Virus record (IMG/VR): IMGVR_UViG_3300021602_000023
Coordinates: 1 to 26,314 of that record
Length of the DNA stretch: 26,314 nucleotides
Source of the DNA: a virus
Direction: 5' to 3' (one strand)
The notes below the pieces were generated by a model. It saw only the letters and a list, made by a program, of their open reading frames with translations. It made no database searches and was not told the origin of the DNA. The position numbers and the translations under genes are program-made. Of the stretch, positions 12,554-20,738 are shown one piece after another; position 1 is the first letter of the stretch; every line of letters starts with the position of its first letter.

Positions 12554-12907
12554 ATGAGACCTATCTGTCAGCAGTGTAACAAGAACTTTCGTGCAGTGAA
12601 TTACCATACTGCCGATGTTATTCACTACCGAAGTAGGTGCGATGAGTGCAACAGGAAGAATGCCAAGTTGGGGCCGCGCAGGCCGCAGTGGCAGCAGAGC
12701 AAGTACAGAAAGAAGGTGGTGTGTGATCTATGTGGCTTTCATGCCATTTATCCAAGCCAACTTCTAGTTTATCACACTGATGGGAATCTGGAGAATATCG
12801 AACTGTCAAACCTGAGAACAATTTGTCTGTGCTGTGTCGAGGTTGTCAAGCGCAAGGAAGTTAATTGGAAGAGAGGAGACTTGGTTCCTGATAACAATCA
12901 CCGGTGA
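12554..12907 (+). CDS. Small zinc-binding HNH-like protein
   Basis: A 117-residue protein with three Cys pairs: CQQC near residue 5, CDEC near 33 and CDLC near 56, followed by a C-terminal CLCC. Around residues 68-95, QLLVYHTDGNLENIELSNLRTIC has the look of an HNH beta-beta-alpha metal finger (H, N and NL spacing). This MRPICQ family is one I recall as common in T4-like phages of aquatic bacteria, usually called hypothetical or HNH endonuclease. Whether it cuts DNA is not shown. The ATG has no ribosome site and follows a late box by 4 nt. It is on the plus strand while both flanking conserved genes are on the minus strand. Its TGA stop (12905-12907) overlaps the next late box. Confidence 0.8.
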   Translation: MRPICQQCNKNFRAVNYHTADVIHYRSRCDECNRKNAKLGPRRPQWQQSKYRKKVVCDLCGFHAIYPSQLLVYHTDGNLENIELSNLRTICLCCVEVVKRKEVNWKRGDLVPDNNHR

Positions 12908-12913
12908 TAAATA
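12906..12913 (+). promoter_or_regulatory. Late promoter box GATAAATA for the HNH homing-type nuclease
   Basis: Reads GGTGATAAATACACTGAG and overlaps the stop codon of the preceding gene. The ATG used is 72 nt further on, with GGAG 6 nt before it. The leader contains a TGAGGG / CCCTCA pair that could fold. Confidence 0.65.
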
Positions 12914-12984
12914 CACTGAGGGTGAACAAGTTCGCTACTTTTCCCGGCCAGTACTGGGATAGCCCTCAACTTACTGGAGTAAAA

Positions 12985-13650
12985 ATGTCAACATATAGAA
13001 AAATTTGGACAGATGCCTATGGTCCTATCCCTAAGGATGATGCCGGTAGGTCGTATGAAATCCACCACTTAGACAAAAATCATTCAAATAACGAGTTAGC
13101 AAATCTGAAATTGGTCTCCATTCAGGAGCACTACGCCATTCATTTCTCGCAGGGAGATTGGGGTGCGTGTCAACGCATCGCTCAACGAATGGATATTTCG
13201 TCCGAGGTCAAAGGCAACCTTGCTGCCAACCTACAGAATGAGCGCGTACGGAATGGTACACACCCTTGGTTAGGCGGTGAAATGCAGCGTGCGGTATGCC
13301 GGCGGCAAGTAGAAAATGGTACTCATGCCTGGCAAAGGAGCAAACACCAAAAAGACCTTGCCATCAGTCGGCGTAACGAAGGAACACTACCGGGCCAAAT
13401 AGCGTCAAAAAACGGCACCCATAACTTTATTGGTGGTGAGGTTCAGCGACAATCTAATCAACGACGAATATCAAACGGCACTCACCATTTGTTGGGGGCA
13501 TCTCAAAATCTCGCAAGAATTGCCGCTGGGACACATCCTTCTCAAATCAAAAAACAATGCCCACACTGTGGTTTAGTATGTGCCGTTGGTAACTATACTA
13601 AGTATCACGGGAATAAATGTAGGCGCCGTGGCGATCTGATAGTTGATTGA
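12985..13650 (+). CDS. HNH endonuclease, free-standing homing type
   Basis: A 221-residue protein starting MSTYRKIWTDAYGPIP with GGAG 6 nt upstream. An in-frame GTG at 12904 is less likely because it overlaps the late box. The HNH core is YEIHHLDKNHSNNELANLKLVSIQEHYAIH (about residues 28-60): His-His, Asn and a final His as the metal and catalytic ligands. The middle has about five repeats built on NGTH (NGTHPWLGGE, NGTHAW, NGTHNFIGGE, NGTHHLLGA, AGTHPSQ), like the modular DNA-binding repeats of homing nucleases. The C-terminus has CPHCGLVCAVGNYTKYHGNKC, a CxxC...HxxxC finger. Such genes spread by cutting relatives that lack them. Its last 53 bases overlap the 3' end of the kinase gene on the other strand. 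(The core quoted was read in two parts.). Confidence 0.85.
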   Translation: MSTYRKIWTDAYGPIPKDDAGRSYEIHHLDKNHSNNELANLKLVSIQEHYAIHFSQGDWGACQRIAQRMDISSEVKGNLAANLQNERVRNGTHPWLGGEMQRAVCRRQVENGTHAWQRSKHQKDLAISRRNEGTLPGQIASKNGTHNFIGGEVQRQSNQRRISNGTHHLLGASQNLARIAAGTHPSQIKKQCPHCGLVCAVGNYTKYHGNKCRRRGDLIVD

Positions 13651-14337: not shown

Positions 14338-15102
14338 TTAACCAATTACCCAGGTCAGTGGCTGTGAATAGTCAACAAAGCGTTTCAGGTCTTCTAGCAG
14401 ATCCAACTTCATCTTCTCGCCTTCGGCTTTCATCGCGGCGCCATTGAGTGAAGTACCACCGCCAGGTCCTGCGATCATGGCGAACTTTTCACGGGCTTGT
14501 CCTATCATAACCTTGAGTTCGGCAAGTGTCCAATCCATGATCCAAACACCTGATCCGTGGTCTTTCAGCAGGACTTCTTCTGGTTTCAGAACGTCGGCCC
14601 AGATGAGAATCTTCTCACCGGTTGCCTTAGGGTCACGCACAATACGCATCACCTTAGTCACAGGATTGAATGTGTATATGACATAGCCACCGAACATTCT
14701 TGCTGCCAGTTCAACATATCCTGCATAGAAATCATACGTGGCCAGACCACCAGCGGCGTTGTAGTTCAGCAGATAAGTGTTTAGAATGGCGCTGCTGAAC
14801 GGATCAAACGAGGATGATGCCGGTCCTGTATCAAGCCCAACGGTGCGTCTGAACAATGATCGGATGTTGATGAACTGCTCCGGAAGGGTGTATGTATCCA
14901 CATCTTTTTCTGTGGTGAACAGGGTGTAAGTTTCTTCTGTGGAGTTTTGAGCCCGTTGCCTATACACTCTTATGGCATATTGATATGCTGCTTCGTAGTG
15001 AGTAGGGTCAAGTTCAATGTCAACGATGCCTGAACCCAACCTGTAGCCCAGGTTGGAAAACATCTCTTGTTTTAGTTCGTCTAATGTAAGTCCTGAGGCC
15101 AT
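14338..15102 (-). CDS. gp13: Neck protein, gp13-like
   Basis: A 254-residue protein starting MASGLTLDELKQEMFSNLGY. LDPTHYEAAYQYAIRVYRQRAQNS and EETYTLFTTEKDVDTYTLPEQFINIRSLFRR are the conserved N-terminal helices and strands. YFNPVTKVM-type sequence (VIYTFNPVTKVMRIVRDPK) and ILIWADVLKPEEVLLKDHGSGVWIMDWTLAELK form the second half. I recall this pattern in gp13 neck proteins of environmental T4-like phages; T4 gp13 is 309 residues. Neck proteins close the filled head and join it to the tail. It is the only late gene in the block from 13.6 to 18.3 kb and has a late box at 15121. The other neck/tail completion genes (18.4-22.2 kb) are on the opposite strand, separated from it by early genes. Confidence 0.68.
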   Translation of the reverse strand: MASGLTLDELKQEMFSNLGYRLGSGIVDIELDPTHYEAAYQYAIRVYRQRAQNSTEETYTLFTTEKDVDTYTLPEQFINIRSLFRRTVGLDTGPASSSFDPFSSAILNTYLLNYNAAGGLATYDFYAGYVELAARMFGGYVIYTFNPVTKVMRIVRDPKATGEKILIWADVLKPEEVLLKDHGSGVWIMDWTLAELKVMIGQAREKFAMIAGPGGGTSLNGAAMKAEGEKMKLDLLEDLKRFVDYSQPLTWVIG

Positions 15103-15825: not shown

Positions 15826-17034
15826 TTACCAAGCCTTGACGATAATCGTGCGCTCGTTGCTACGGCCCTTCGGTGTGATACCAACTGACTTGATTGATTC
15901 AAAGAACTTACGACCAGCGGGTTTGCTGCCCATAATTTCTTTCAGTTGTTCAGCCGGCTTACGCAGAGTTTTCGTCTGGCTCTTCACTGAGTCAAAGCCA
16001 AGAATCGTTGTTCCCCGGACAGTTAGTGTCTTGGAGTAATCGTCAGCAACCAAATAGGTCAACTTACGCAACTGGGTATCGTACAGATACGCCTCAGAGC
16101 ATCCGTGCAGTTTCACCGGAGACACACTGATCAGATCCACCTTTGTCGCCGGATCCTTAAACGCCTTCAGAAACTTCATCTTGGAAACTTGCTTCTCCAC
16201 CGGAATCGCTTTACGGGCACGGGGAGCCTTCGCTGCCTTCTTGACGCTGATGTAACTATTCAGATCACTCAGCACCAATTCAATGAACTTGATGGTGTTC
16301 TTGATTTGTTGTTTGGAGTAGTGAGCATACGCCTGAATCATTTGGGCGTCCTTAGTCACCAGAACTTCCTTCATTTCGTTCAGTTTCTTTGTCCAGACTT
16401 CGGTGATCATGCTGATATGATGCGGCAGCACATTCTTCTTGGAGACTTCATCCATTGGACGCAGTGAATGTTTCGTGGGCTGTCCGGATTCAATATATGC
16501 GTCAAAGAGACCTTCCAGTTCACCTGCGGCTTCACGCGCCTTTTCGCGCATCGTTTCTTGGATGTTGGTCTTTGCTGTGGCAACCTGATCCGGGGACTTC
16601 GTTGTTTTGCCGAATTGACTGGCACTACGGACTTCGGGCTTGTGAATCGTTTGAAGCAACCTGGTGATTTCATTCTCCAGTGTCAGCATTTCATGTTCAG
16701 TCAGATCAAGGCCGCGCAGCACCATGCGAGACAGCCATGCAAAAGTGGGCAGACGGAATTCGGCATCGTCAACTTTACGCATGACCTTGCCATCGGCAAC
16801 GCGATCATGGAAGTCAAGATAAGTTGCCAGCATATCACGGGCATCTTTCTTGGTGTAGAAGCGGTGATACCAGTTCAGTGAACGGGCAATGGCAGAGCCA
16901 CGATTTTCGGGCATAGGTTGTTCCGCAAATAGCGGTTCGTCGCCCATATATTTTTGATCGGCGTCACGCGGGTTTAGCGCCTTGACTTGTGAATGATCTT
17001 CTGTCTTTTTGATTTTGATTTTACGAGTTGCCAT
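15826..17034 (-). CDS. Conserved phage protein of unknown function, 402 residues
   Basis: I do not recognise this gene. It is basic at the N-terminus (MATRKIKIKKTEDHSQVK). RSLNWYHRFYTKKDARDMLATYL suggests a helical region near residue 50. A long helical middle (residues 100-270) has Lys/Glu-rich patterns, including RKAIPVEKQVSKMKFLKAF. The C-terminal third (VSPVKLHGCSEAYLYDTQLRK, LTYLVADDYSKTLTVRGTTILGFD) looks beta-rich and ends ERTIIVKAW. There is no membrane segment or clear catalytic motif. It has a sigma70 promoter of its own and an AGGAAAC ribosome site, so it is probably expressed early and is not a virion protein. The gene is followed by a UUCG hairpin. Confidence 0.82.
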   Translation of the reverse strand: MATRKIKIKKTEDHSQVKALNPRDADQKYMGDEPLFAEQPMPENRGSAIARSLNWYHRFYTKKDARDMLATYLDFHDRVADGKVMRKVDDAEFRLPTFAWLSRMVLRGLDLTEHEMLTLENEITRLLQTIHKPEVRSASQFGKTTKSPDQVATAKTNIQETMREKAREAAGELEGLFDAYIESGQPTKHSLRPMDEVSKKNVLPHHISMITEVWTKKLNEMKEVLVTKDAQMIQAYAHYSKQQIKNTIKFIELVLSDLNSYISVKKAAKAPRARKAIPVEKQVSKMKFLKAFKDPATKVDLISVSPVKLHGCSEAYLYDTQLRKLTYLVADDYSKTLTVRGTTILGFDSVKSQTKTLRKPAEQLKEIMGSKPAGRKFFESIKSVGITPKGRSNERTIIVKAW

Positions 17035-17051: not shown

Positions 17052-17080
17052 AGTATAACACTATTTAGATTGATTGTCAA
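17052..17080 (-). promoter_or_regulatory. Sigma70 promoter for the 402-residue gene, overlapping the upstream stop codon
   Basis: Minus strand: TTGACA (17075-17080), 17-bp spacer, TATACT (17052-17057). The TGA stop of the 132-residue gene (17077-17079) is the TGA of TTGACA. Confidence 0.85.
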
Positions 17081-17475
17081 AGAGGTAGGACAGATCCGTT
17101 TTCATGCTCCAATGAATTGAGCAGTTCCGATCTTGTGTTGTTGAAATAAGTGTAGGGGAGACCGTTGAGGAAGCAGAAATAATCCCAGTCGCCGTCAGCG
17201 CGTGAGCCTTCCATGAGCCAGCGCAGGGCCATTTCGCGGGACTTCGCGCCATTGAGTTTGCAACGGGTGACTTGAATCTCAAATACCTCGATGGCGTGAG
17301 CTTCATCCTCTTTTTCAGCGACAGACGAGGCTTCCATCGCGCTGATCAGCGAGTCCCACTCGGCTTGTTTTTCCACCGGGTTCATTGAACCCCAATCTGC
17401 CCACCAGTTCTGACTCGGGCGGAACCCGAAAGCGTCTTTGTGCAGATCAGAAACAATGTTTTCGTCGTATGTCAT
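17077..17475 (-). CDS. Small conserved phage protein, early, unknown function
   Basis: A 132-residue protein beginning MTYDENIVSDLHKDAFGFRP. FRPSQNWWADWGSMNPVEKQAEWDSL is a family pattern I recall from many phage early regions. An acidic helical middle and a C-terminal motif (EMALRWLMEG, DYFCFLNGLPYTYF) follow. Function unknown. The start has no purine-rich ribosome site; instead its 5' leader (CAACTCGCAAAACG...ACAAAATG) is nearly identical to that of the 49-residue gene. It has its own consensus promoter, and its stop codon forms part of the promoter of the next gene. Confidence 0.82.
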   Translation of the reverse strand: MTYDENIVSDLHKDAFGFRPSQNWWADWGSMNPVEKQAEWDSLISAMEASSVAEKEDEAHAIEVFEIQVTRCKLNGAKSREMALRWLMEGSRADGDWDYFCFLNGLPYTYFNNTRSELLNSLEHENGSVLPL

Positions 17476-17497
17476 TTTGTGTCGTTTTGCGAGTTGA
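17476..17497 (-). repeat. Leader repeat before the 132-residue gene (copy 1)
   Basis: The minus-strand leader TCAACTCGCAAAACG followed by ACACAAAATG recurs before the 49-residue gene (17686-17707) with two differences. It lies between -10 and ATG and replaces a normal ribosome site. Confidence 0.6.
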
Positions 17498-17502
17498 TAG
17501 AA

Positions 17503-17533
17503 GTATTATAGCAGATTTGGGTATTATTGTCAA
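17503..17533 (-). promoter_or_regulatory. Consensus sigma70 promoter for the 132-residue gene
   Basis: Minus strand: TTGACA (17528-17533), 17-bp spacer, TATAAT (17505-17510), a perfect match. The 31 bp 17503-17533 are identical to 18033-18063, so the promoter is a duplicated cassette. The TAG of the upstream 49-residue gene ends 2 nt before it. Confidence 0.9.
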
Positions 17534-17535
17534 GC

Positions 17536-17685
17536 CTAATAATCTTCGGGGTGACCTTGATCAGGACCCTGATAGTGTGGGTTTGGTTCCCACGAATCGT
17601 AGTCAGTCAGGAGCCATTGCTGATCCGGACGCTCTGCACCCACGATCCAGGCCCATTCGCGGAGTGCTTGTTGCATGTAAGACAT
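17536..17685 (-). CDS. 49-residue early phage protein
   Basis: Read from ATG at 17685 to TAG at 17536: MSYMQQALREWAWIVGAERP then DQQWLLTDYDSWEPNPHYQG then PDQGHPEDY. Trp, Tyr and Pro content and the AWIVGxERPxQxWLL...PHYxGP...HPEDY pattern recall a tiny conserved phage protein family of unknown function. It sits between its own perfect promoter and the next promoter. It shares a near-identical leader with the 132-residue gene. Function unknown; coding status is supported by the promoter, leader and family-like sequence. Confidence 0.75.
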   Translation of the reverse strand: MSYMQQALREWAWIVGAERPDQQWLLTDYDSWEPNPHYQGPDQGHPEDY

Positions 17686-17707
17686 TTTGTTCCGTTTTGC
17701 GAGTTGA
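17686..17707 (-). repeat. Leader repeat before the 49-residue gene (copy 2)
   Basis: TCAACTCGCAAAACG followed by GAACAAAATG on the minus strand, matching the leader at 17476-17497. Confidence 0.6.
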
Positions 17708-17712
17708 ACTGT

Positions 17713-17741
17713 ATTATATACCCAAACTGATTTATTGTCAA
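17713..17741 (-). promoter_or_regulatory. Consensus sigma70 promoter for the 49-residue gene, with overlapping inverted repeat
   Basis: Minus strand: TTGACA (17736-17741), 17-bp spacer, TATAAT (17713-17718). The stop TGA of the 91-residue gene (17738-17740) lies within TTGACA. A perfect 10-bp inverted repeat TACCCAAACT / AGTTTGGGTA (17719-17728 and 17741-17750) spans the spacer and -35. Confidence 0.88.
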
Positions 17742-17750
17742 GTTTGGGTA
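17719..17750. promoter_or_regulatory. Possible operator: 10-bp inverted repeat over a sigma70 promoter
   Basis: TACCCAAACT, 12 bp, AGTTTGGGTA. One arm abuts the -10, the other overlaps the -35. Related ACCCAAA or ACCCGAG sequence occurs in the spacers of the promoters at 17503, 18033 and 18292. A repressor or anti-repressor site, or a hairpin ending the upstream mRNA, are both possible. Confidence 0.4.
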
Positions 17751-18013
17751 CGGGTTGTCAGAAAGTAGCCCGAGTGCCAAATCTGTCCGATTGGGCCACC
17801 GAGATTCGTTTCTTTGGTGTTCAGGCGTTCGCGGGACTTGTGTGCGTAGATGCTGACACCGCCGCACTTGTCGTACCAACGCAACAGAGTACGGCAGATG
17901 TAGCCGATATCTTCACGCTCGGCACACGCCATTTCAGAGTGTACGCGCCCATCTTCAATCAGTCGGGCATGCCAACGATTCTTGATTCGGGTGACTTTGA
18001 TTTCGGGTTCCAT
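17738..18013 (-). CDS. Small conserved phage protein, early, 91 residues
   Basis: The N-terminus MEPEIKVTRIKNRWHARLIE then HSEMACAEREDIGYICRTLLRWYDKCGGVS forms a compact alpha/beta pattern that I recall from phage hypothetical proteins. The tail (ERLNTKETNLGGPIGQIWHSGY) is Gly-rich. Function unknown. A perfect sigma70 promoter precedes it, with GAAAGAAC as a weak ribosome site. Its stop TGA is embedded in the -35 of the next promoter. Confidence 0.82.
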   Translation of the reverse strand: MEPEIKVTRIKNRWHARLIEDGRVHSEMACAEREDIGYICRTLLRWYDKCGGVSIYAHKSRERLNTKETNLGGPIGQIWHSGYFLTTRTQT

Positions 18014-18032
18014 GATGTTCTTTCAGTAACCC

Positions 18033-18063
18033 GTATTATAGCAGATTTGGGTATTATTGTCAA
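18033..18063 (-). promoter_or_regulatory. Consensus sigma70 promoter for the 91-residue gene
   Basis: Minus strand: TTGACA (18058-18063), 17-bp spacer, TATAAT (18035-18040). It is identical over 31 bp to 17503-17533. The TGA stop of the 68-residue gene (18060-18062) is part of TTGACA. Confidence 0.9.
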
Positions 18064-18266
18064 CCTACACGACCTCTGTATTCTGCTTTGACGTACCAGT
18101 CGGGGACATAGTCCAGGTTGTTGTGTTCGTTGTTGTAGTCAGTCGCACGTTTACGGGCTTCCGCTTCGTTGTCGTAGTGTTCAGTGCTCCAGGGCTTCTG
18201 ACCCCAACCACGTTCATATTCAGTGAACTCCACTGCGTATGCTGTTTGAATTGTGACTCTTGACAT
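18060..18266 (-). CDS. Small phage protein, early, 68 residues
   Basis: MSRVTIQTAYAVEFTEYERG then WSTEHYDNEAEARKRATDYNNEHNNLDYVPDWYVKAEYRG. The start at 18266 has AGGAAAG five to six nt upstream; a GTG at 18287 is not needed. The sequence is acidic/aromatic with a beta-alpha-beta look and no known motif. It is the first gene of the minus-strand early series and has a sigma70 promoter at 18292-18320. The stop lies in the next promoter. Confidence 0.75.
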   Translation of the reverse strand: MSRVTIQTAYAVEFTEYERGWGQKPWSTEHYDNEAEARKRATDYNNEHNNLDYVPDWYVKAEYRGRVG

Positions 18267-18291: not shown

Positions 18292-18320
18292 AGTATAGCT
18301 TATCTCGGGTTTGTTGTCAA
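18292..18320 (-). promoter_or_regulatory. Sigma70 promoter for the 68-residue gene
   Basis: Minus strand: TTGACA (18315-18320), 17-bp spacer, TATACT (18292-18297). It is 2 nt away from the plus-strand late box at 18323, so early and late transcription diverge from one point. Confidence 0.88.
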
Positions 18321-18322
18321 GT

Positions 18323-18330
18323 GATAAATA
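18323..18330 (+). promoter_or_regulatory. Late promoter box GATAAATA for the neck/tail genes
   Basis: Reads AAGTGATAAATACTCTATG, with exactly 4 nt before the ATG at 18335. It is the only obvious promoter for the plus-strand structural protein at 18433. Confidence 0.7.
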
Positions 18331-18334
18331 CTCT

Positions 18335-18445
18335 ATGTTTAGTGACACCAAATATACCAAGTGGATAGGAAAAAACCAACGAGTTTTCAAAAAGGAATGG
18401 GTAATTCTGTATGATTACGAAGGAGAACTAAAATTCCACGCCTAA
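18335..18445 (+). CDS. Possible 36-residue leader peptide upstream of the neck/tail protein
   Basis: ATG at 18335 to TAA at 18443-18445: MFSDTKYTKWIGKNQRVFKK then EWVILYDYEGELKFHA. It begins 4 nt after a late box and its last codons contain the AGGAG ribosome site and the first codons of the next gene in another frame. I do not recognise it. It may be a real small protein, a leader that couples translation, or the 5' part of a frameshifted product. Confidence 0.4.
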   Translation: MFSDTKYTKWIGKNQRVFKKEWVILYDYEGELKFHA

Positions 18446-20121
18446 GCCTTTACACACCGGAGAAGTCAAATAACTACCGGTACATTGATCGTACCATTGC
18501 TGAGATGCTCCAGGCTGGCGCCACGGATCTGTACATTCACAAGTATCTCGGACCAACAAATCAGGGCCCATCGGTTGATGCTACCCAACCACAGTACGAT
18601 TCACTGGATCCTACTCATATCCAGGATCTGCTGTTTATGGAGAACCGAGACCGAACATACGAACCGGATATCATCAGGCTGCGTGGTCACTACAACGTAC
18701 AGAATCTGGACTTCGACCTAAGTCAGTTCGGTCTGTTCCTGAATAACGACATTCTGTTCATCACTGTTCACTACAACACCATGATTGACCTTGTTGGCCG
18801 TAAATTGATGGTAGGTGATGTGCTTGAGTTACCGCATTTGCTTGACTACAATCCACTGAATGACAAGATACCAACATCGCTTAGGCGCTTCTATCAGGTC
18901 ACTGATGGCAACTATGCCAGCGAAGGTTTCTCTCCGACTTGGTTCCCGCATCTATGGCGTATCAAGTGTGAACCGCTTGTTGACTCACAAGAGTTCTCAC
19001 AGATTCTCTCTGCGCCAATCAATCAGGATAACTATCTCGGACTATGGGATGCCACAAAAACATACCCAGCGGGATACTCAATTACATTCGGTGATAAGAC
19101 TTATATCTCCAAGCAAGATGTTCCAATAGGAATCATGCCACCGGATCCTTTGTATTGGGAACTTGATCCTAATCAGAATCTCAAAGATATCCTGGCGACA
19201 TACAACAAGAACATCGCCATCAATGATGCTGTTCTGGCAGAGGCGAAGAGGTTGTTACCGAAAGCAGGATACGACACCACTAAGTTATACATTGTTCCGA
19301 CATACGGGGCAGACTCAAACAAACTGAATCAACCTGCACCACCTATTGACATCGTTGTTACTGCGGGGGGCGGACCACCGGCAGTAGGAACTGTGGTGAT
19401 GATGCGCTCACCTGAATTCAAGACAGCAAGTCCTGCTATTCGCATCTCCAAGCAGGCAATCCAAAGTATATGGGACATGACAGCGGACATGTCAAATGAA
19501 CCGCTGGCAGAATTCCTTCAGATGAGTTTGCAATCAATTGAGTTGCCACCGACAAGAATAGGATCTGGGTCAGGACCGATAAGCGGTGAGTCCGTTCTAT
19601 CAGTTCAATCAATGGGCGCTGTCACGGGACCTTATGGAACTGCTGATAACACGTATGCCACTGCTGATCAGAACCCAGAAGCGGTGGGATTCACGGGAAC
19701 AATAACTCCGGTGATGGACTATCGCGCAGATTGTGATCCGAGATTCCAATACATTGCTCGTAGCAGTCCGCGATCATTCGGATACACCACTGGTTACCTT
19801 GCAGGTGATGGCACTGCACCAAACGGTTTCCCAACTGGCGCCGGTATTACTTTCCCGACGAATCCACAGATCGGTGACTACTTTCTCCGTATTGATTACT
19901 TCCCGCAGTTACTATATCGCTGGGACGGACAACTGTGGATTAGAATATCCTCGAATGTCAGAACCGACACTGGTATGACGACAGCAGACAAGTCGCAAAC
20001 ATCAAGTTTCATCAACAACGACAATCAAACATTGATGACGGATGGCACTCTGGTGCCGCAGAAGCAACCATTGTCTTCAATACTACAACTTGCACCGGAT
20101 CCACTTCCGCCGGTGCCTTAA
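18433..20121 (+). CDS. T4-like neck/tail structural protein with no ATG start
   Basis: The frame is open from 18415, and clear family sequence (IPRLSLYTPEKSNYRYIDRT) begins at 18433, well before the first ATG at 18505. An AUU at 18433 lies 7 nt after AGGAG and is taken as the start, giving 562 residues. Key segments are IQDLLFMENRDRTYEPDIIRLRG, FDLSQFGLFLNNDILFI, VGRKLMVGDVLELPHL and SPTWFPHLWRIKCEPLVDSQEF in the N-terminal 170 residues. The C-terminus has YLAGDGTAPNGFPTGAGITF and DYFLRIDYFPQLLYRWDGQLWIRI. I recall this as a conserved virion protein of environmental T4-like phages. The middle resembles T4 gp14 (neck) in layout, and the next structural gene is gp15-like, so a neck role is likely but not proven. 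The stop TAA shares TTAA with the convergent nuclease gene. Confidence 0.8.
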   Translation: MPRLSLYTPEKSNNYRYIDRTIAEMLQAGATDLYIHKYLGPTNQGPSVDATQPQYDSLDPTHIQDLLFMENRDRTYEPDIIRLRGHYNVQNLDFDLSQFGLFLNNDILFITVHYNTMIDLVGRKLMVGDVLELPHLLDYNPLNDKIPTSLRRFYQVTDGNYASEGFSPTWFPHLWRIKCEPLVDSQEFSQILSAPINQDNYLGLWDATKTYPAGYSITFGDKTYISKQDVPIGIMPPDPLYWELDPNQNLKDILATYNKNIAINDAVLAEAKRLLPKAGYDTTKLYIVPTYGADSNKLNQPAPPIDIVVTAGGGPPAVGTVVMMRSPEFKTASPAIRISKQAIQSIWDMTADMSNEPLAEFLQMSLQSIELPPTRIGSGSGPISGESVLSVQSMGAVTGPYGTADNTYATADQNPEAVGFTGTITPVMDYRADCDPRFQYIARSSPRSFGYTTGYLAGDGTAPNGFPTGAGITFPTNPQIGDYFLRIDYFPQLLYRWDGQLWIRISSNVRTDTGMTTADKSQTSSFINNDNQTLMTDGTLVPQKQPLSSILQLAPDPLPPVP

Positions 20122-20738
20122 GGTTTCTGTTTACAGTTTTTGAAGTGCCAACGAGGCATTGTTTGTGCCCCGCCTGTTTTCCCACAATGCGGGCATTCTA
20201 CTATTTCCTGTCTGACACCAATTCGCGCCAGCGCACTAATCTTAGCCGATGCTTTTAGTTTAGGTGAGCCAGGGATACCTTTATTTTTATTTGGTTTAGT
20301 TCTTGGTTTAGGTGTTTTATACTTTAGCCCTATTTTCTTTTCTAAATATTCAGGTGATCGTTTAATACCGGTTTGCCTCATGCTCTTATGAGCATTTTCT
20401 TCGGGTGTATGTTTTCTACCTGTTTGAGCCATGGCTATTTTCTTGCGGCCTTCAGGACCAGCGTCCCCTCCGTCCCCCATCTCTGGTTTGAGATTTGCCC
20501 ACTCATCGCTCTCAACAATATTCCACAACTTACTATAGTATTCGCCCCATTCTCTAATCTCCTCTGGGGTAGTACACTCTTTTAATATCTCAGTATCGTA
20601 ATCAAATCCATGTTTTTTGAGATGGTGCGACCAATATTTTCCTGATCCTGGATATAGATGTGGATCTGACGCGGCAGTTTTGCCCAAATATTTTAACCCG
20701 GTAGTTCTGTGGGTTTTCTTATAAAGATAAATAATCAT
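20118..20738 (-). CDS. GIY-YIG homing endonuclease, free standing
   Basis: A 206-residue protein. The N-terminal GIY-YIG core is IYLYKKTHRTTGLKYLGKT (YLY...YLG in place of GIY...YIG) with GSGKYWSHHLKKHG and the catalytic-type Glu in EIREWGEYY. The middle has NUMOD3-like GRKHTPEENAHKSMRQTGIKR. The C-terminus has CPHCGKTGGAQTMPRWHFKNC, a CxxC...HxxxC finger like the one in the HNH protein at 12985. It is inserted on the minus strand between two plus-strand structural genes, as free-standing homing nucleases of T4-like phages often are. GGAG 7-8 nt before the ATG serves as ribosome site, and a TATAAATA late box is at 20797. Confidence 0.9.
   Translation of the reverse strand: MIIYLYKKTHRTTGLKYLGKTAASDPHLYPGSGKYWSHHLKKHGFDYDTEILKECTTPEEIREWGEYYSKLWNIVESDEWANLKPEMGDGGDAGPEGRKKIAMAQTGRKHTPEENAHKSMRQTGIKRSPEYLEKKIGLKYKTPKPRTKPNKNKGIPGSPKLKASAKISALARIGVRQEIVECPHCGKTGGAQTMPRWHFKNCKQKP
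20726..20733 (+). promoter_or_regulatory. Late promoter box GATAAATA for gp15-like gene
   Basis: Reads AAAGATAAATAATCATAC, 34 nt before the ATG at 20768. It lies inside the first codons of the GIY-YIG gene on the opposite strand. Confidence 0.65.

Follow-up and report, generated by a model that had tools for sequence, protein, structure and literature searches.

The small genes lying between two conserved genes of this phage most likely form a cassette island, in which members come and go through recombination of one promoter with a similar one inside the block TTGACAwTAAAT, and the -35 box serves as a shared stop codon. Each cassette would comprise one small accessory gene preceded by a short leader and a strong promoter of the sigma-70 type, the cassettes standing head to tail between the two conserved phage genes. 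Crossover is proposed to fall in the nearly invariant TTGACAwTAAAT, which takes in the -35 box and the beginning of the spacer, so that recombination between like promoters would swap everything downstream of the -35 box. Because the crossover would lie in this block, genes ending ahead of it, or at its TGA, would keep a proper end whichever cassette comes next, and joining at the first promoter box can let almost any gene adjoin any other.

Sequences and definitions

The window, meaning the whole stretch of 26,314 bases that was analysed, is an entire virus record and a piece of a large myovirus, the tail sheath of which is closest to those of PA5oct-like phages, Atu_ph07 and other jumbo phages. 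Its relatives are metagenomic contigs or fragments, several of them sharing samples, which were deduplicated by sequence, and ORFs were called mechanically in all contigs. An upstream ORF was taken as promoter-proximal when its end lay within -80 to +150 of a promoter (n = 113); the main counts of such ends come from 11 related phage contigs, excluding G012 and G013, which had entered only via a shared 17-mer. Window-clade gene families are named by the length of the window member (68, 91, 49 and 132).

An interlocked array of promoters and genes

An array of promoter-gene cassettes fitted end to end had been described in the initial annotation, and this order is confirmed on the minus strand between anchor genes A and B, where it runs from the late box of A through promoter, 68-aa gene, promoter, 91-aa gene, promoter, 49-aa gene, promoter, 132-aa gene and promoter to gene B (Table 1). 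The coordinates all check for the three stops which that annotation identified as the TGA of TTGACA (17077-17079, 17738-17740 and 18060-18062) and for the TAG at 17536-17538, which stops 2 nt short of TTGACA; the TTGACA and 17-bp spacer that it gave for each promoter hold for all five minus-strand promoters, over 1.3 kb. The exact promoter motif occurs three times in the window against 0.02 expected by chance, and P1 and P3 are identical across all 29 bp. The promoter of the 68-aa gene has no same-strand gene upstream and adjoins a divergent late-type promoter. An extended -10 (TG) is seen in P1 and P3, and family-wide in 147 of 248 promoters; it is consistent with strong host-polymerase promoters. 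The promoters of the array probably act early via host RNA polymerase, the timing being suggested by the type of promoter.

Table 1. Features of the island and its two anchor genes, from the outer edge inwards, with gene A last
Feature	Position	Strand	Remark
Late-type promoter box GATAAATA of divergent structural gene	18323..18330	+	Outer island edge
Promoter of 68-aa gene	18292..18320	-	TTGACA-17-TATACT
68-aa gene, phrog_14410	18060..18266	-	TGA within next TTGACA
Promoter P3 of 91-aa gene	18035..18063	-	TTGACA-17-TATAAT
91-aa gene, phrog_12201	17738..18013	-	TGA within next TTGACA
Promoter P2 of 49-aa gene	17713..17741	-	TATAAT
49-aa gene, phrog_36991	17536..17685	-	TAG 2 nt ahead of TTGACA
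Promoter P1 of 132-aa gene	17505..17533	-	TATAAT
132-aa gene, phrog_21968	17077..17475	-	TGA within next TTGACA
Promoter PB of conserved 402-aa gene	17052..17080	-	TATACT; inner island edge
Conserved anchor gene B, 402 aa, phrog_11903	15826..17034	-	
Conserved anchor gene A, virion structural protein, phrog_11591	18505..20121	+	Frame open upstream to ~18430

Each of the four small genes has a match in a PHROG family annotated as of unknown function, and for this reason they are not regarded as spurious ORFs; a Pfam search of the four gave no match. The closest isolate homologues are found in rhizobial phages for the 132-aa gene, in Aeromonas, Erwinia and Cronobacter phages for the 91-aa gene, in Brevundimonas and Erythrobacter phages for the 49-aa gene, and in Salmonella and Escherichia phages of ~110 kb (probably T5-like) together with Synechococcus and Caulobacter phages for the 68-aa gene. 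That the nearest homologues lie in four different phage groups argues for separate origins of the cassette genes.

The structural genes of the window have T4-like late boxes, GATAAATA, and at several genes those at 18323, 12486, 6222, 1936 and elsewhere are followed by an ATG 4-6 nt on, a gap that would leave late messages nearly leaderless. Gene A of the window is without the ATG of its counterpart in the related contig L004 (...ATAACTATGCCCCGTCTAAGT), the aligned codon being ATT (AAGGAGAACTAAAATTCCACGC), and a further ~100 bases stand upstream of it, in which an ORF of 36 codons starts 4 nt past a late box (18323-18445 and 18430-18510, plus strand).

Gene content in related phages

In the majority of ~150 relatives A and B are only ~150-200 bp apart, against 0.5-2.1 kb in the window clade, where the interval holds one to five small genes that are singly present or absent, their order fixed. 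By family, the content is 68-91-49-132 in the window, 91-132-89 in L004 and L005, 91-132-x-89 in L007, 224-68-91-132 in L029, 68-83-132-x in L028, 62-132-x in L025, and 132 plus one or two others in L024; the 49-aa cassette is thus missing from L004, L005 and L007. Other relatives have a single gene of 220-250 aa in the interval, its end often being the TGA of the promoter of gene B. The 89-aa gene of L004 is without a promoter of its own and makes one swap in relatives of a gene lacking one. Gain or loss of single genes, anticipated in the initial annotation, is supported by relatives of 90-96% identity that are without single cassettes or have others, and what the relatives show is not the fixed gene set with unrelated junctions that was named there as contrary evidence.

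Some other genes of the window also differ between relatives. An HNH-like (12904-13650, plus strand) and a GIY-YIG-like (20118-20738, minus strand) homing endonuclease gene are present in the window and missing at those places from L005 / L004, and L004 has a different endonuclease-like gene between window positions 14348 and 14350.

Elsewhere in these phages, junctions of the same type recur many times per genome, as the annotation had proposed to look for. Exact promoter copies number 16 in a contig of 44.6 kb, 18 in one of 103 kb and 17 in one of 264 kb, while the pattern read backwards, used as a control in related contigs, gives 0-1 copies. A TTTGGG motif is present in the spacer of 41 of 248 promoters and may be an operator. 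Derivation of the promoter family from known phages was considered and rejected: Atu_ph07, phiM12 and T4 are essentially without TTGACA-17-TANNAT, and PA5oct has 10 such sites, one with an ORF ending at +3.

Stop codons in the -35 box exceed chance

Among the 113 promoter-proximal ORFs, 40 have the TGA of TTGACA as their stop, 12 end at -2 and 7 at -3. The frame of the TGA is used by 40 of the 53 ORFs that enter a promoter, where one third would be expected (p about 4e-10). In a larger set of 181 promoters, comprising the related contigs and the two unrelated ones (G012 and G013), the longest upstream ORF ends at the TGA in 52 cases; for TTGACA hexamers not followed by a -10 box the figure is 27 of 673 (Fisher p about 1e-19, with an odds ratio of 9.6). 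That these are spurious ORFs running into the box by chance has next to no probability: the invariant TGA stops any ORF in its frame, as the 27 of 673 null illustrates, but the four window genes belong to PHROG families, and the excess persists among protein-conserved ORFs, of which 34 of 111 end at this TGA. At least one member ends there in 23 of 60 protein-conserved families, and it is the majority end in 19 of the 60 (next commonest offset, 5). Within the 68/62-aa family some members end at +3 and others at -2, with an identical GTAGG before TTGACA, which indicates that the end of the gene was reset at one place. In G013 (L222 and L223), 10 of 21 promoter-proximal ORFs end at +3, the TGA of TTGACA, and these ends are perhaps convergent.

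The main rival to promoter recombination is plain genome compaction, in which tight packing makes the TGA of TTGACA a handy stop and genes turn over for unrelated reasons. Phage genomes are compact, and several genes end at -2 or -3, directly ahead of the box; compaction, however, does not predict avoidance of the other two frames, and G012, an unrelated phage whose 25 promoters are equally strong, has no ORF end at +3, so that we hold it to be unlikely. Under recombination between promoters, repeated shuffling would filter for gene ends at -3, -2 or the TGA, and shuffling has probably selected the TGA register.

A regulatory purpose, whereby upstream translation ends at the -35 box and so spares the promoter from ribosomes or transcripts, would fit the rarity with which conserved ORFs end inside the promoter past +3 (offsets 8, 10 and 19). 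Against this, some protein-supported ORFs are assigned ends at +41 to +134, so that some promoters tolerate readthrough if the assignments are right, and the recombinant promoters described below are left unexplained; we give this reading a low probability.

Breakpoints at the promoters

The clearest recombinant is the promoter that stands in L004 after the 91-aa gene and ahead of the 132-aa gene; it equals window P2 at all informative sites from -40 to -2 and window P1 at all informative sites from +10 to +60. Being P2-like on the left and P1-like on the right, it must have switched inside CTTGACAATAA, between -1 and +9. The exact block common to the window and L004 recombinant promoters is only 11 bp, which is short for homologous recombination. 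The 132-aa protein of the window has a C-terminus unlike that in L004.

Further changes of partner occur around the same box. Genes of the 49-aa and 68-aa families, at 88-100% identity, are found beside other genes with the joins at or near TTGACA: the 68-aa gene is joined variously to the 91-aa, the 83-aa or another gene (in L272 its protein is 100% identical and the downstream gene differs), the 62-aa gene to the 132-aa or 91-aa gene, and the 49-aa gene to the 132-aa gene or, in L285, to another gene. The flank on the A side is likewise joined to differing first genes, and in both L004 and L272 the first cassette adjoins the late box. When promoter pairs with a like left flank and an unrelated right gene are pooled, similarity extends to ~+13 and then falls to the background of unrelated pairs; the 25 left-only pairs collapse to about eight junction classes, in each of which one left flank is joined at TTGACA to differing right genes. 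A further 453 pairs homologous on the right only were too divergent, with indels in the leader, for breakpoints to be placed. The leader itself is a second, rarer seam, since in L285 the gene preceding the 49-aa gene ends TGATCAACTCGCAAAACGG within it, with no promoter between.

The change-over points thus lie at the -35 box, in agreement with the earlier proposal of recombination between like promoters, and compaction does not predict that unrelated neighbours change over inside TTGACAATAA. We infer the process itself from sequence, and promoter recombination, rather than another microhomology process, would be the one at work.

The block TTGACAwTAAAT, in which positions +7 to +11 are at 75-89% identity, coincides with the change-over interval of the recombinant promoters, and sigma-70 promoters in general need no conserved spacer. 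A stronger reading, which we consider improbable, is that the block is a dedicated seam, held nearly unchanged in many of the genome's promoters beyond the needs of sigma-70, acting both as crossover site and as universal stop donor for gene capture free of an integrase.

Hairpins and terminators

The array might instead consist of true promoter early stem-loops (PeSLs), i.e. composite promoter-terminators in which a hairpin ends the upstream transcript. An inverted repeat with perfect 9-bp arms does span the -35 box of P2 (17741-17749 and 17720-17728, minus strand; ACCCAAACT/AGTTTGGGT), its left arm deriving from the end of the upstream gene, and complementarity of at least 7 bp at promoters is in modest excess (13 versus ~4 expected). 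The folding energies of the promoters, on the other hand, do not differ from those with swapped flanks (p = 0.16), which speaks against a general hairpin, no intrinsic terminator was found at the junctions between cassettes, and the recombinant promoter of L004 is kept without a hairpin. A hairpin or terminator as a general feature of these promoters was accordingly rejected, and it is highly improbable that they are true PeSLs.

Comparison with known systems

The PeSL of T4-type phages is nonetheless the closest known counterpart of the array. Arbiol et al. 2010 and Comeau et al. 2014 are said to have described PeSLs as mobile cassettes with a sigma-70 promoter through which genes are shuffled. 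The window resembles them in that a strong sigma-70-type promoter is repeated among the small accessory genes that make up a plastic region, and, as far as sequence evidence goes, in gain and loss through recombination between copies, but not in a stem-loop or terminator combined with the promoter. Because of this last difference the array is not classed as PeSL, though it would work alike. Packaged minicircles, formed through exchange between neighbouring copies, are a further feature of PeSLs. PeSLs of RB49 and phi1 are cited in a passage of PMC4503421. RB49 has 44 PeSL-type promoter sites at up to one mismatch, many with a spacer hairpin, and the upstream stop falls at -8/-9 in 9 of 22 cases, with one at +3, its TAA lying in ...TAAAAAAGTTG TTGACA. 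In both systems the border of a mobile promoter contains a stop codon, yet the parts differ, as the stop lies typically at -8/-9 in RB49 and inside the -35 box here.

The morons of lambdoid phages are single genes with their own promoter and terminator, inserted between conserved genes. Single genes with their own promoter between conserved genes are found here too, whereas no terminator of their own was found and the window cassettes form arrays interlocked via the promoter. Lambdoid phages also have boundary or linker sequences, short conserved sequences at module borders that permit exchange; the border here is similar in that respect but is a consensus promoter, present in many copies per genome. 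Integron arrays, in contrast, hold promoterless cassettes, and every cassette of the window comes with a promoter. T4-type phages are stated to undergo 'semilegitimate' recombination at their conserved regulatory signals (PMC4177764), in which promoters and translation starts act as short homologies for gene acquisition, as proposed here; the difference is that the crossover is now placed to 11 bp, with a stop codon in the shared box.

In the literature searched, no account was found of a seam formed by a stop codon within the -35 box. Turnover of phage accessory genes is usually described with vague borders, while the present seam can be narrowed to some ten bases, is repeated many times in a genome and accounts for where genes end. 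It offers a simple sequence rule for locating the borders of cassettes in uncultured phages, as well as a system that could be used to measure how little homology natural gene exchange requires, and in comparison with the known kind the seam is unusually clean.
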